Source of the DNA: Leifsonia shinshuensis
GTDB taxonomy: Bacteria > Actinomycetota > Actinomycetes > Actinomycetales > Microbacteriaceae
NCBI RefSeq assembly: GCF_022606355.1
Contig: NZ_JAHHZQ010000001.1
Coordinates: 124,001 to 188,000 of the forward strand
Direction: 5' to 3'
Length of the DNA stretch: 64,000 nt
Shown piece by piece: positions 38,406 through 45,724 of this stretch (positions are counted from its first letter, which is position 1; every line of letters begins with the position of its first letter). The notes under the pieces are model-generated. The model worked only from the letters and a program-made list of their open reading frames with translations. It was not told the DNA's origin and did no database searches. Position numbers and translations under genes: made by a program.

Positions 38406-38954
38406 GTGAGCACCTTTCCCCGGAGCCCCAAGTCGAAGCTCGGATACGACGTCGACCAGGTGGACGAGTTCCTCGTCAGCGCCCGCGTCGCCTATGACGC
38501 CGACGCTTCTTCGCAGGCGTCCCTGACCGCCGCCGACATCCGCCACACGGCCTTCTCGATGGCCAAGGGCGGCTATTCGACCTCGCACGTGGATGCCGCC
38601 CTGGAGCGGCTGGAGGACGCCTTCGCGGCTCGCGAGCGCGAGGCCGCCCGCGGCGCTGTCAGCGATGCCGAGTGGTTCGAGCAGGCGCGTACGACTGCGC
38701 AGGCGATCCTCGACCGTCTCGAGCGGCCCATCGGCCACCGCTTCCAGAGGGTCAGCTTCCTGACCCTCGGGTACAACCGCCATGACGTCGATCGTTTCGC
38801 CGGCAGGCTGGTCAAGTACTTCCAGGACGGGCGGCCGATGAGCGTCGAGGAGGTGCGCACCGTGACGTTCCGCGAACAGCGCGGGGGGTACCGGGAGGCG
38901 CAGGTGGATCTCCTCCTGGACAGCGTCACAGACGTGATGCTCGCGGTCCGCTGA
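38406..38954 (+). CDS. Protein with four DivIVA-like motifs
   Basis: A 182-aa soluble protein built from four copies of the short DivIVA-domain motif (aromatic...GY...VD..L): KSKLGYDVDQVDEFL (about 9-23), MAKGGYSTSHVDAAL, FLTLGYNRHDVDRFA and REQRGGYREAQVDLLL. No long coiled coil follows, unlike Wag31/DivIVA, so it may bind membrane curvature or partner DivIVA proteins without forming a scaffold. The start is the GTG at 38406, just 12 bp after cdsA; CAGAAT 5 nt upstream could be a -10 box. Polar growth in this phylum depends on DivIVA proteins, which makes its position next to phospholipid synthesis suggestive. Confidence 0.82.
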   Translation: MSTFPRSPKSKLGYDVDQVDEFLVSARVAYDADASSQASLTAADIRHTAFSMAKGGYSTSHVDAALERLEDAFAAREREAARGAVSDAEWFEQARTTAQAILDRLERPIGHRFQRVSFLTLGYNRHDVDRFAGRLVKYFQDGRPMSVEEVRTVTFREQRGGYREAQVDLLLDSVTDVMLAVR

Positions 38955-41363: not shown

Positions 41364-42401
41364 CTACAGCTCGTTCTGGCGGGGGATGATCACCTGCTTG
41401 ATGATGAGCAGGATCGCCGCGGCGAACGGGATCGCGACGAGGGCTCCGAGGATGCCCAGGAGGGTTCCGCCGGCGAGGGCGGCCACCACGACCAGGGCGC
41501 CGGGGACGGACACCGCTCGATTCATGATGCGCGGGCTGAGGAAGTATGCCTCCACCTGCATGTAGGCGAGGTAGTAGATGGCCGCGGCGATCGCGGTCGG
41601 CGGTCCGGAGAGGAAGCAGACGGCGACGATGATCACCGAACCGGTGATCGTTCCGACGAGCGGGATCAGAGAGAAGAAGAACGCGATCGACGCGAGCAGG
41701 ATCGGGAACTTCGCGCCGATGATCGTCAGGAAGACCGCGCTGAGGACGCCGTTCACCAGGGCGAGCGACACCTGACCCATCACGTACTTGCCGACGGAGT
41801 CGGTGATCTGGTCGCCGAGGTCGGCGAAGCGCGAGCGACGGGAGGCCGGCACGAGCTGGTATGCGGCGCGCTTGATGCTGGGCAGCGAGGCCGTGAAGTA
41901 GATCGTCAGGATGACCACGATGATCGCGCCGAAGGCGCCCTGCACGATCCCGATGCCCGTCTGCAGCACCTTCGAGGTGATGTCGGGGAGGTTCTTCTGC
42001 AGCCAGTCGGTGACCGCGTTGATGTTCTGCTGGTTGACGATCGTCGGGAACTGATGCTGGAGACTGAGGAACCAGGACTCGGCCCCACCGTTGTTGACCC
42101 AGTTGATGGTGTTGTTGACGAGCTGGCTGGCCTGGCCGACCGCGACGGGCACGATCGCCCAGATGAGCGCGACGAACAGGCCGAGGATGACGACGAGCGT
42201 CAGGACGAGGGCCAGCCAGCGGGGGAACTTGCGCCGTTCGAGGAACGAGATCGACGGCTCGATCCCCAGCGCCAGGAACAGCGCGGCACCGATGTAGGTG
42301 ATGATCGTGGCCAGGCTGACGATCGACGTGAGGATGAGATAGCCGAGCCCCACACCGAGTGTGCCGATCAACCCCACGCGGAACGCGTTCTGGATCTTCA
42401 C
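41364..42401 (-). CDS. AI-2E-family (UPF0118/PerM-like) membrane protein
   Basis: A 345-aa polytopic membrane protein with about eight helices. The N-terminal two helix pairs (LGVGLGYLILTSIVSLATIITYIGAALFLALGIEPSISFLERRKFPRWLALVL), a soluble middle (residues 90-150) and the C-terminal GxIPxxG-like helix ASIAFFFSLIPLVGTITGSVI with a conserved Pro-Arg motif (YFLSPRIMNRAVSVPGALVVVAALAGG) match the AI-2E/YdiK/PerM family, whose members have been linked to sodium/proton exchange or peptide export; AI-2 transport should not be assumed. The GTG at 42401 with GGAGGGGGA 4 nt upstream is preferred to 42416. It lies downstream of, and on the same strand as, the giant coiled-coil gene. Confidence 0.88.
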   Translation of the reverse strand: MKIQNAFRVGLIGTLGVGLGYLILTSIVSLATIITYIGAALFLALGIEPSISFLERRKFPRWLALVLTLVVILGLFVALIWAIVPVAVGQASQLVNNTINWVNNGGAESWFLSLQHQFPTIVNQQNINAVTDWLQKNLPDITSKVLQTGIGIVQGAFGAIIVVILTIYFTASLPSIKRAAYQLVPASRRSRFADLGDQITDSVGKYVMGQVSLALVNGVLSAVFLTIIGAKFPILLASIAFFFSLIPLVGTITGSVIIVAVCFLSGPPTAIAAAIYYLAYMQVEAYFLSPRIMNRAVSVPGALVVVAALAGGTLLGILGALVAIPFAAAILLIIKQVIIPRQNEL

Positions 42402-42442
42402 TGAGTCCCCCTCCACAGCCGGTCGCCTCCGCCGGCCGGAGG

Positions 42443-45400
42443 TCAGTCGTCGGCCGACACCTTGTCTGCCGCCTGGAGCATACCCCTCAGGTTCTCGAAG
42501 TATCCGGCCACGGCCTCGCGCTCAATCCTAATCTGGGAAAGACGCTCCTCCGCGTCGGCGACCAGGCGTTGCGTGCGCTCCTCCGCCTCCTCGATGAGCG
42601 CGTCAGCGCGTTCCTGGGCCTCGCGAACGATACCCGCGGCCGCCTTCTCGGCCTCCTTGCGTGCCGACTTCACCGTCTCGCGGGCCTCGGCGTCGAACAT
42701 CTCGGCCTCGGTGCGGGCCTGAGCGGTCCGCTTGACCGCGTCGGCGAGCTGCGTGTTGGCCTCGTCGAGGTACTTCTGGGTCTGGGCGACGGCCTCCTGG
42801 TGATGGCCGAGGTATTCCTTCTCGGCCTCGTCACGCCGGGCGCGGAGCTCGACATCGAGGTCGATCCGCGCCTGCTCGATCTCGTGGGTGCGCTTGTCGA
42901 GCTCGGCCATCGTGGCGGTGCGGAGTGCCGTGAGCTCGGCGTCGAGCGCGGCACGCGCGGTGGCGTCCTCCTGGTCGAAGGCGGCCTGCTGCTCGGCCAG
43001 CTCCGCGTCGAGCGCCGTTCGAGCCTCCGCCGACTCGCGGGCGATCTCGGCACGGGCCTTCGCGGTCTCGGCGTCGAGGGCCACCCGCGCCCGCTCGGTC
43101 TCCTCCGCGAGAGTCACCCGGGTCAGCTCCGCCTCCCGCTCGAGCTCGAGACGCTGCTGCTCGCGCTCGTTCTTCAGCTCCTGCTCGGTGGTTGCCCGCT
43201 GGTCCGCGAGCTCTGCGGTCGTGCGCTTCACCTCGGCGGCGAGCGTGCTCCGCGTCTGCTCACGGTCGTCGGCGAGACGGGATCGGGTCTCCTCCTCCTC
43301 AGCGGCGAGAGCGGACTTCGTCTGCTCGACCTCGGCTGCGAGGGCGGACTTGGTGGTGGTGACCTCGGTCTCGAGAGCGGACTTCGTCTGCTCGACCTCG
43401 GCTGCGAGGGCGGACTTGGTGGTGGTGACCTCGGTCTCGAGGGCGGATCTGGTCTGCTCGACCTCCGCGGCCAGTGCAGACTTCGTCTGCTCGACCTCCG
43501 CCGCCAGGGCTGTCCTGGTGGTGACGACCTGGGTCTCGAGCGCTGAGAGGGTCTGCTCCTTCTCAGTCGCCAGACGCACGGCGGTCTGTTCGACGTCGGC
43601 GGCGAGCTGGGCACGCGTGGTGGCGACCTCTGCGGCGAGGGCGCTGCGTTCGGTCGCGAGCTCTTCGGTGAGGGCGGTGCGCGCCTCGCCGATCTCCGCG
43701 GCGAGATCGGCCCGGAGACGCTTGGCCTCGGTATCGAGTTCCTTGCGCTGCGCGTCCACCTCGGCGGCGAGCTCGGAACGAGTGGCCTCGACTTCGGCGG
43801 CGAGAGCGGCCTGGGTCGTCTCGACCTCGGAGGCGAGGTCGGCGCGGGTCGACTCGACTTCGGCGGCGAGTGCCGCCTGGGTGGTCTCGACCTCGGTCGC
43901 GAGCTCGGCCCGCGCGGTCTCGACCTCCTTAGCGAGCGCGGAGCGGGTCTTCTCGACCTCCTTCGCCAGCGAGGCCTGGGTGCGCTTGACGTCGGCGGCG
44001 AGGGCGGCCTGCGTGCTCTCGACCTCCGCCGCGAGATCGGCACGCGTGGTCTCGACGGTGTCGGCGAGCTCCGCTGCCGTGCGCTCCCGGTCGGCGGCGA
44101 GCTGGGCGCGGGTGTTCTCGACCTGGGTCGCGATCTCATTGGCTGTGCGGTCGCGGTCGGCGGCGAGGGTGGCCGCGGTCGAGATGCGGTCGGCCTCCAG
44201 CCCTGCTCGGGTCTCCGTCGACTCGCGCTCGAGGGTCGTGCGGGTCTGGAGGACTTCGTCGGCGAGCTCCTTCCTGGTGCGCTCCACCTCGTCGGCGAGA
44301 GCGGAGCGCGTCGTCGTGACGTCGGTCTCGAGCTGTGAGCGCGCGGCCGTCACATCGGCCTCCAGCTGCGATCTGGTCGTGGTGACCTCGTCCGAGAGGG
44401 CGGACTTGGTGCGGGTCACCTCGTCGGCCAGCTCGCTCGTGGTGCGTGCGACCTCGTCGGCCAGCGCCGACTTCGTCGAAGTCACCTCGTCGGCCAGGCG
44501 CGCCCTGGTCTGCTCGACCTCTGCGGCCAGTGCGCTCGTGGTCTGCTCGACCTCGGCCGCGAGGGAGGTCGTCGTCCGCTCGACGTCGTCCGCCAGCTTC
44601 TGCCGTGCCGTGGCGTCCTCGTGCTGGAGGTCTGCGCGCGTCTGGGCGGCCTCGGCCGCAAGGGCGGCGCGCTGGCGCTCCACCTCGTCGGCGAGCTCGG
44701 CACGGGCCTGCGCCATTTCGGCAGCGAGCGCGTCGCGCGCCGCGGTCTGCTCGGCCGCGAGCCGGTCAGCGGTTTCTGCGACCTTCTTGTCGAGCTCCAG
44801 CCGGGTCTGGGCCGACTCGCGCTCGAAGGCGGCGCGGTCGCCGGCGAGCGCGTTCTCGAGCTCGCTGCGGCGGGCCGCGATGGTGCGGTCGAGCTCGGCG
44901 GTCTCCGCCCGGGCGGCCTCGGCCTCGCGGAGGGCGACGGCCTTCAGCTCCGCGGCCTCCCGGTCGGCCTCGGCGCGGACCGCCGCGGCCTCGCGCTTGC
45001 TCGTCGCGCGCAGCTCGGCGGCCTCGGTGGCGACGGCCCCGCGGATGGCGGCGGCCTCGCGCATGGCGTCGGTGAGGAGCGTCTCCTTGTCGGCGCGGGT
45101 GCGCGCGAGCAGCTCCGCAGACTCGATCTGGGCGTCCTCCAGCGCGGTCGTCGCACGCGCCTGCGCGTCGGCCAGCACCCGCTCCGCCTGCAGCGCCGCT
45201 GTCTTCTTGATCTTCTCGACTTCGGCGGCGACCCCGGAACGCAGCTTCTCCGCGTCGATGTCGGCTTGGGCGATCAGCCGGGTCGACTGCTCCTCGGCGA
45301 CGCGGAGGGTGTTCTCGAGCTTGGTCCCGAGGCCCGAGTAGGTGGGGCTGCCGACCTCTTCGATCTCGGCGTTGAGCTCGTCGATCCGCAGCTGGAGGCG

Positions 45401-45538
45401 CTTGATCTCCTTGGTCTGGTCGGCCGACTGCGTGTTGGACTTGATCAGCTCGCGCCGGAGCTCCTGGACGGCCTTGTCCACTTCGTCCTTGTCGTAGCCG
45501 CGGAAGACCTGGGTGAAGTTGGATTCGTCGGTGGCCAC
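42443..45538 (-). CDS. Giant DivIVA-headed hendecad coiled-coil protein
   Basis: A 1031-aa, very Glu/Ala/Thr-rich soluble protein. Residues 7-30 (FTQVFRGYDKDEVDKAVQEL) are a DivIVA-type membrane-targeting head; 40-215 is a heptad/hendecad mixed coiled coil; 216-875 is exactly 60 uninterrupted 11-residue repeats with consensus L-A-A-E-V-E-x-T-R/K-x-A, with Leu (or Ile/Phe) at position 1 of every repeat; 876-1031 is a further alpha-helical tail ending EAVAGYFENLRGMLQAADKVSADD. No membrane helix or enzymatic domain. Hendecad periodicity suggests a straight or right-handed coiled coil near 100 nm long. Streptomyces Scy/FilP are the nearest analogues I know, but their repeats differ. Start ATG at 45538 with CAGGAG 6 nt upstream. 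Likely a polar scaffold or filament. Confidence 0.9.
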   Translation of the reverse strand: MATDESNFTQVFRGYDKDEVDKAVQELRRELIKSNTQSADQTKEIKRLQLRIDELNAEIEEVGSPTYSGLGTKLENTLRVAEEQSTRLIAQADIDAEKLRSGVAAEVEKIKKTAALQAERVLADAQARATTALEDAQIESAELLARTRADKETLLTDAMREAAAIRGAVATEAAELRATSKREAAAVRAEADREAAELKAVALREAEAARAETAELDRTIAARRSELENALAGDRAAFERESAQTRLELDKKVAETADRLAAEQTAARDALAAEMAQARAELADEVERQRAALAAEAAQTRADLQHEDATARQKLADDVERTTTSLAAEVEQTTSALAAEVEQTRARLADEVTSTKSALADEVARTTSELADEVTRTKSALSDEVTTTRSQLEADVTAARSQLETDVTTTRSALADEVERTRKELADEVLQTRTTLERESTETRAGLEADRISTAATLAADRDRTANEIATQVENTRAQLAADRERTAAELADTVETTRADLAAEVESTQAALAADVKRTQASLAKEVEKTRSALAKEVETARAELATEVETTQAALAAEVESTRADLASEVETTQAALAAEVEATRSELAAEVDAQRKELDTEAKRLRADLAAEIGEARTALTEELATERSALAAEVATTRAQLAADVEQTAVRLATEKEQTLSALETQVVTTRTALAAEVEQTKSALAAEVEQTRSALETEVTTTKSALAAEVEQTKSALETEVTTTKSALAAEVEQTKSALAAEEEETRSRLADDREQTRSTLAAEVKRTTAELADQRATTEQELKNEREQQRLELEREAELTRVTLAEETERARVALDAETAKARAEIARESAEARTALDAELAEQQAAFDQEDATARAALDAELTALRTATMAELDKRTHEIEQARIDLDVELRARRDEAEKEYLGHHQEAVAQTQKYLDEANTQLADAVKRTAQARTEAEMFDAEARETVKSARKEAEKAAAGIVREAQERADALIEEAEERTQRLVADAEERLSQIRIEREAVAGYFENLRGMLQAADKVSADD
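42914..44893 (-). repeat. 33-bp (11-codon) repeat array, 60 copies
   Basis: Encodes residues 216-875 of the coiled-coil protein as 60 consecutive 11-codon units without a single insertion or deletion. Copies are mostly 60-90% similar at protein level, with consensus LAAEVEQTKSA around units 43-48. Confidence 0.95.
43310..43441 (-). repeat. 66-bp direct duplication inside the hendecad array
   Basis: Units 45-46 and 47-48 (residues 700-721 and 722-743) encode identical protein and are almost identical in DNA, including the neighbouring GCTGCGAGGGCGGACTTGG tract. This is the signature of a recent double-unit duplication, so the array is still changing length. Confidence 0.85.
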
Positions 45539-45724
45539 TGTGTTACTCCTGAAGGGGATTCCGGGTGAGCGAGCCGCGCGCGCGCCGCATCGATCCTACA
45601 TTTCGTCGCCCGTACCCGCATGGGGGACTGCGTGAGCGCGCAGACAACGGTTAGATGCCTCTCAGGGTGCTCCACTATCGTTGTGTGACTGTGCCCGCCC
45701 CCCACCGGCACATGAGGAGTCTGT

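Follow-up and report, generated by a model that had tools for sequence, protein, structure and literature searches.

A DivIVA-headed rod protein of Leifsonia shinshuensis, probably of FilP type, with 60 uninterrupted hendecads

A long gene of Leifsonia shinshuensis was characterized in a 64,000-nucleotide (nt) stretch of contig NZ_JAHHZQ010000001.1 (assembly GCF_022606355.1, positions 124,001 to 188,000), hereafter called the window. The gene lies on the minus strand (42443..45538), is preceded at a distance of 7 nt by an AGGAG ribosome-binding site (45546..45550, minus), starts with GTG and encodes 1031 amino acids (aa) in an open reading frame without an internal stop. With a probability of about 0.7, we conclude that its product is a FilP-type cytoskeletal rod protein, the central rod of which has been lengthened by unit-wise duplication of 11-residue segments (hendecads). 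The protein is thus a longer and unusually regular cousin of FilP, a known polar-growth protein.

The array of repeats occupies residues 216-875 (42914..44893, minus) and has the consensus L-A-A-E-V-E-x-T-R-x-A. An earlier note, made from the letters of the window, had claimed that these residues form 60 uninterrupted hendecads with a hydrophobic residue at position 1, and this claim held in full. Cutting the segment every 11 residues yielded exactly 60 units with zero insertions or deletions, and position 1 was L in 56 units, F in 2 and I in 2 (60/60). For comparison, in 2000 composition shuffles of the rod protein, unbroken runs of L/I/V/M/F every 11 residues reached a mean maximum length of 3.8 and never went beyond 8. 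The power spectrum of L/I/V/M/F in the array peaked at 3.666 residues, the power being 91.5 at a period of 11/3 versus 0.4 at 3.5 and 0.3 at 51/14. At 0.15 nm per residue, the array would measure ~99 nm, in agreement with the roughly 100 nm given in the note. The units are not clonal, with 57 distinct peptides among the 60. A 66-bp segment occurs in two identical tandem copies, one coding for units 45-46 and the other for units 47-48 (43310..43441, minus), and this duplication is a trace of a recent expansion step.

When the array was plotted on a helical wheel, the axial residue was L at 93% and L/I/F at 100%, with V on one side of the axis and T on the other, followed by D/E (88%) at −65 degrees and K/R (73%) at +65 degrees. 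Read from the sequence, this flanking of the axis by charges is a coiled-coil pattern. A similar wheel was obtained for a locus of another genus, L208 (axial L, 69%; L/I/V/M/F, 83%), and axial L amounted to 65% in the Agromyces locus L029, so that the Leu core is not peculiar to Leifsonia shinshuensis. According to PMC9858780, one core residue of a hendecad aims straight at the axis, hence the need for a small residue or a larger oligomer. The Leu at the axis in 56 of the 60 repeats hints at an array of more than two strands, in the form of a dimer of dimers. Scy, which organises Streptomyces tips as a long coiled coil, differs in having an Ala core.

Purifying selection acts on the array, most strongly at the core Leu. 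Comparison of the array with that of L007 (94.6% identical) gave a nonsynonymous value (pN) of 0.031 and a synonymous value (pS) of 0.267, corresponding to a pN/pS of 0.12. Ratios for each hendecad position were obtained from 37 of the 66 pairs of twelve 944-residue orthologues, pairs with an array identity of ≤75% being left out. Position 1 exhibited the lowest pN/pS (0.072), followed by position 4 (0.143) and position 8 (0.147), and from its low ratio the Thr at position 8 is probably a core residue.

The DivIVA-type head proposed in the earlier note was recovered by two profiles. TIGR03544 (DivI1A) scored 23.3 bits on the rod protein, above its cut-off of 22, and a head profile (A2) built from 18 aligned heads matched Bacillus subtilis DivIVA (2wuj; E value, 1.8e-4) and several GpsB chains in the Protein Data Bank (PDB), with the alignment running over the RGYD tip. 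In the DivIVA-like superfamily, an N-terminal RGYDxxEVD motif is described as leading into a short dimerising coil of heptads (PMC9858780). The rod protein carries RGYDKDEVD at residues 13-21, and R13, G14, Y15, E19, V20 and D21 were invariant in the 18 aligned rows. Judged by these sequence features, the protein is a member of the DivIVA-like superfamily.

AlphaFold models covered residues 1-131 and 880-1031, the array lying outside them. In the 131-residue N-terminal model (predicted local distance difference test [pLDDT], 84.6), the head (residues 1-62; 45353..45538, minus) consists of the tip motif F12-R13-G14-Y15-D16 and a first helix (17-62), which is followed by a break at residues 63-66 and a second helix (67-130). 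The break (G-S-P-T; 45341..45352, minus), evident in both the model and the letters, contains the only proline of the protein. It leads into a conserved, Ala-rich N-terminal rod (residues 67-215; 44894..45340, minus) that lies on the 11-residue grid and is supported by that second helix and by profile A2, which spans residues 1-131. The conserved C-terminal tail, defined from an alignment (A3) and the second model, comprises residues 876-1031 (42446..42913, minus) and ends with ...AGYFENLR...; residues 880-1031 were predicted as one helix with a mean pLDDT of 94.8.

At the head tip, R13 is preceded by F, M or L in 51 of the 53 family rows, whereas two presumed Streptomyces FilPs have R in that place. 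In B. subtilis DivIVA, the matching F17 is reported to insert into the membrane with R18 assisting (PMC3924036, PMC4285798). Because actinobacterial DivIVA is described as having a basic residue at the F17-equivalent position (PMC4285798), membrane insertion by the head tip of the rod protein is a guess made by analogy. The stretch from the motif to AEEQS is 75 residues long in L158 (genus code g4) versus 68 in the other 51 family loci, and the extra 7 residues in the head coil of L158 are the size of a heptad insertion.

Rod length was then compared among relatives. In the window and 51 named loci, the distance from VFRGYD to AGYF is 10 modulo 11 in all 52 rows, with 8 distinct lengths in the range of 450-1000; 35 of the rows share a distance of 505 residues, and 32 of these 35 are Agromyces or Cryobacterium. 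The same remainder was found in 20 of 20 loci of the genus, at least 4 of which are also among the genomes of the named loci. Within these 20, the array ranges from 36 to 66 units, and position 1 is L/I/V/M/F throughout in 17 (exceptions: one in L088, two in L095 and one in L097). Since the head-to-tail distance is conserved modulo 11, an 11-residue grid ties the head to the tail.

A further sample of other genera of the family comprised 52 loci with 50 genus codes, of which L178 has no tail anchor, leaving 51 loci with 49 genus codes. Distances were taken here between profile anchors, from AEEQS to the first tail motif. They extended from 151 to 888 residues and occupied only 3 of the 11 values modulo 11, namely, 8 in 33 loci, 4 in 17 and 1 in 1. 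Presumed outgroups gave a value of 1 in five of the five that could be aligned (L209-L212 and L214), two of them on weak tail matches; L213, unaligned at the tail motif, and L215 and L216, with no tail match, were left out. Each step in the series 1-8-4 is +7 modulo 11, that is, one heptad. A second tail anchor yielded values of 10 (32 loci), 6 (17), 5 (1) and 3 (1). Pooling the window, L010 and 4 outgroups with the 51 loci gave 57 distances, the 49 distinct values of which fell into 3 classes modulo 11, with an entropy of 1.31 versus 3.32 for random and a z of −30, a value that is no probability as the rows are related; other moduli among 4-18 were unremarkable (z, −0.5 to 1.9). A quick head-plus-tail tree of 60 rows, with 13 of 57 inner branches well supported and several long branches, requires at least 49 length changes versus 5 register changes. 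Rod lengths in these proteins differ by 11n residues and rarely by a heptad step. Rod length and best period were also correlated (Spearman 0.92; n = 56, L199 taken with its default start), the long members approaching 11/3, a trend that fits the addition of pure hendecads to an older FilP rod.

Searching for homologues with the whole rod protein, we found that 0 of 7996 scored candidates passed an E value of 0.001. When a short orthologue and residues 1-215 of it served as queries, 51 proteins were returned. The 51 named loci belong to Leifsonia, Diaminobutyricibacter, Cryobacterium, Compostimonas, Humibacter, Agromyces, Glaciibacter, Microterricola and a Microbacteriaceae metagenome-assembled genome. 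Orthologues in sister genera are 482-541 aa long. The head profile gave exactly one match per genome in 28 of 28 genomes of the genus, and it matched (E ≤ 0.001) in 201 of 249 genomes of the same family, covering 67 of 78 genera, as well as in 179 of 296 genomes of a class-wide draw, some of which are from the same family. The earlier note had regarded the protein as a candidate for an undescribed structural protein; as a class this could not be upheld, for the protein falls in with FilP and Scy in the DivIVA-like superfamily, as delineated in PMC9858780, and is widespread in the bacterial family. Four genera (g3, g8, g11 and g16) had no head match in both listed genomes of each. The four shortest frames of the 52 other-genus loci measure 436, 408, 365 and 299 aa. 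Those of L171 (436 aa; g28), L194 (365 aa; g61) and L178 (299 aa; g36) come from genomes of 1.6-1.8 Mb and the one of 408 aa from a 2.9-Mb genome; L178 is close to a contig end.

In 28 listed genomes of genus code g105, presumed to be Streptomyces, the head profile matched a frame of 318-416 aa (~1e-14 to 1e-12). In two of these genomes, L209 and L210, it picked a frame of 332-333 aa (E 8e-14 and 6e-14) beside a long frame, which itself matched at 1.5e-4 in L209 and was not among the listed matches in L210. NCBIfam NF041483 named the 1298-aa long frame of L210 Scy (2150 bits), and this frame adjoins a methylmalonyl-CoA epimerase gene, for which reasons L210 was taken as Streptomyces. By analogy with the published gene order (PMC9858780, PMC4255298), the 332-aa frame beside Scy is presumed to be FilP. 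PMC9858780 describes micrococcal FilPs and reports that both FilP and Scy contain hendecads; its main text does not mention Leifsonia or Microbacteri. In the open-licence literature on hendecads, DivIVA, FilP, Scy, Micrococcales and Leifsonia, outside which falls the J Struct Biol 2023 hendecad survey, no paper was found whose title, opening of the abstract or consulted passages treat the hendecad array or the modulo-11 rule.

Several results count against the assignment to FilP and the register rule. Pfam DivIVA scored 17.2 bits on the rod protein, under its cut-off of 28, and Foldseek found no match to the head model in the PDB; in a viral library, a single match was returned at an E value of 5.9. 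The presumed FilP identity of the L209 and L210 frames rests on their position beside Scy. The head profile had no match in 48 of the 249 family genomes and 11 of the 78 genera, and 10 of its 201 family matches (genus codes g2, g46 and g78) had E values above 1e-9 and could represent different DivIVA relatives. Finally, the tail of L173 is 5 residues shorter internally, which breaks the register rule in 1 of 51 loci.

Immediately downstream of the rod gene, after 26 nt, lies a gene for an AI-2E-family (PF01594) membrane protein (41364..42416, minus; Pfam, 185.9 bits). In 50 of the 51 named loci (all but L052), the rod gene is directly followed by an AI-2E-family gene in the same orientation. 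The same holds for 48 of the 52 other-genus loci, where the estimated gaps range from −12 to 242 nt; in 8 loci from outside the family, none was found in the flank examined. The named loci also have a conserved wider neighbourhood. One side carries UMP kinase, frr, a DivIVA-repeat protein and likely cdsA, the calls for UMP kinase and frr exceeding the NCBIfam cut-offs, and the other side carries two carbohydrate-active genes, putative glgB and glgE, called by reading the sequence alone. Because of this wider conservation, co-location by itself is a weak sign of partnership between the rod and the AI-2E protein, and the tight same-strand spacing is a stronger one; the AI-2E-family protein is likely the operon partner of the rod gene. 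We considered whether the AI-2E protein might be linked to mycobacterial PerM and FtsB but abandoned the idea: PMC6872210 describes PerM as a 10-helix protein with no homologues beyond Actinobacteria, and AI-2E is absent from the main text of both PerM papers. The palindrome CCTCCGGCCGGCGGAGG is located within the 26-nt gap between the rod and AI-2E genes (42417-42442). The DivIVA-repeat (PolyDIV-type) protein (38406-38954, plus strand; 182 aa) contains four GY..V motifs and scored 218 bits with TIGR03543, over the cut-off; its place in a pyrH-frr-cdsA neighbourhood fits a remark in PMC9858780 that PolyDIV genes occur near UMP kinase.

Extrapolating from FilP, we infer that the rod protein would most likely provide polar or subapical scaffolding. 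Its heads would pair as in DivIVA/GpsB and might sit at the pole or the subapical membrane, with the F-R tip and polar DivIVA/Wag31 assisting; a separate DivIVA/Wag31-like protein (C1:848664, FREGYDQDEVD) is encoded in the same genome. The rods would be parallel coiled coils with almost no supercoiling, possibly of more than two strands. Their length would be ~145 nm for 965 residues at 0.15 nm each, the rise implied by the 40 nm given for 265 aa in PMC6599971. They would bundle through lateral and end contacts into an elastic subapical scaffold, as does Streptomyces FilP, which is reported to self-assemble into filaments and to localise subapically (PMC6599971). The AI-2E-family protein encoded alongside may act as the membrane partner of the rod.

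Four other accounts of the protein or its length were weighed. The measuring rod envisaged in the earlier note would be a molecular ruler, in which array length fixes a distance, e.g., from the pole to a membrane complex. The distance of 505 residues shared by 35 of 52 rows and the length differences in whole hendecads would suit such a device, but 36 to 66 units occur inside one genus and 49 distinct lengths in 57 rows, and because of this variation, with its at least 49 changes on the tree, a fixed ruler is unlikely. Neutral length, which is compatible with the FilP identity, comes slightly short of an even chance: slippage between 33-bp repeats would add or remove units, and selection would keep only the register. 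The identical 66-bp duplication, the wide length variation among relatives and the rise of best period with rod length all speak for it, but one length is kept over 32 Agromyces and Cryobacterium rows, and free drift would soon lose it. That the protein is an orthologue of Scy is very improbable. The two are of similar length (1031 versus 1298 aa in L210), share a superfamily and are rich in non-heptad repeats, Scy being 'composed almost entirely of hendecads' (PMC9858780). However, the Scy model NF041483 was absent among the matches of the rod protein at E values up to 1, and the Scy of L210 has its spectral peak at 3.642 (51/14, the period of a 51-residue repeat), with a power of 51.2 there and 2.0 at 11/3, versus 11/3 for the array, which bears out the earlier note in setting the rod apart from Scy as a pure 11-residue repeat. 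The axial residue of Scy is Ala at 48% (L/I/V/M/F, 35%) versus L at 93%, and the rod protein retains the stretch ahead of RGYD that Scy lacks according to PMC9858780. The short orthologues in sister genera further suggest a separate lengthening.

Apolipoproteins and perilipins also have 11-residue repeats, and PF01442 (Apolipoprotein) scored 90 bits on the rod protein, displayed against a cut-off of 90, as might be expected of a lipid-coating amphipathic helix. A wide nonpolar face is the criterion for a lipid-binding apolipoprotein helix, but the hydrophobic face here is narrow (L, V and T within 33 degrees each side), with acid on one flank and base on the other. Moreover, PF01442 gave 22.8 bits for Scy, 40.9 for an Agromyces orthologue and 85.7 for another Leifsonia orthologue; because the score follows hendecad content, the match was rejected as a periodicity effect and not taken as membership. 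A lipid coat is the least probable of the accounts. It is doubtful, too, though less so than a ruler, that the rod and the AI-2E-family protein make up an undescribed, family-specific membrane-tethered scaffold of four-stranded, Leu-cored hendecad cables with a length set per species in 11-residue steps; if true, the rods of the family would form a natural series in which length is the main difference.

Taken as FilP-type rods, the proteins of the family offer a natural series, with 49 distinct rod lengths in 57 rows and three register classes exactly one heptad apart. In natural proteomes, hendecad coiled coils are under-represented, and AlphaFold has difficulty with them (PMC11676326). With this series, one could test which oligomer arises from a pure hendecad with a Leu core and whether the length of a FilP-type rod has an effect on cell shape or polar growth. 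As a conserved neighbour, the AI-2E-family protein is a candidate membrane partner for a FilP-type protein.

Among known systems, DivIVA, Wag31 and GpsB share the RGYDxxEVD head motif and the profile match with the rod protein but have short heptad coils. Tetrabrachion is an archaeal surface-layer protein without a DivIVA head. Its stalk, named in PMC11676326, is likewise a long non-canonical coiled coil, and the families of Martinez-Goikoetxea and Lupas 2023 (e.g., MACH), as cited there, share hendecad coiled coils. Scy (NF041483) has the superfamily, the length class and mostly non-heptad repeats in common with the rod protein and differs in period and axial residue. FilP, the Streptomyces intermediate-filament-like protein, which is reported to be widespread in Actinobacteria (PMC4255298), shares both the DivIVA-like head and the long helical rod. 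It has a 265-aa coil and forms 37-nm rods with a 60-nm striation, and its loss results in crooked hyphae, according to PMC6599971. In comparison, the rod described here, at ~965 residues, is three to four times longer and consists largely of a pure hendecad array with axial Leu; its head tip is F-R versus R-R in the two presumed FilPs seen, and its neighbour is an AI-2E-family gene, versus Scy at FilP.

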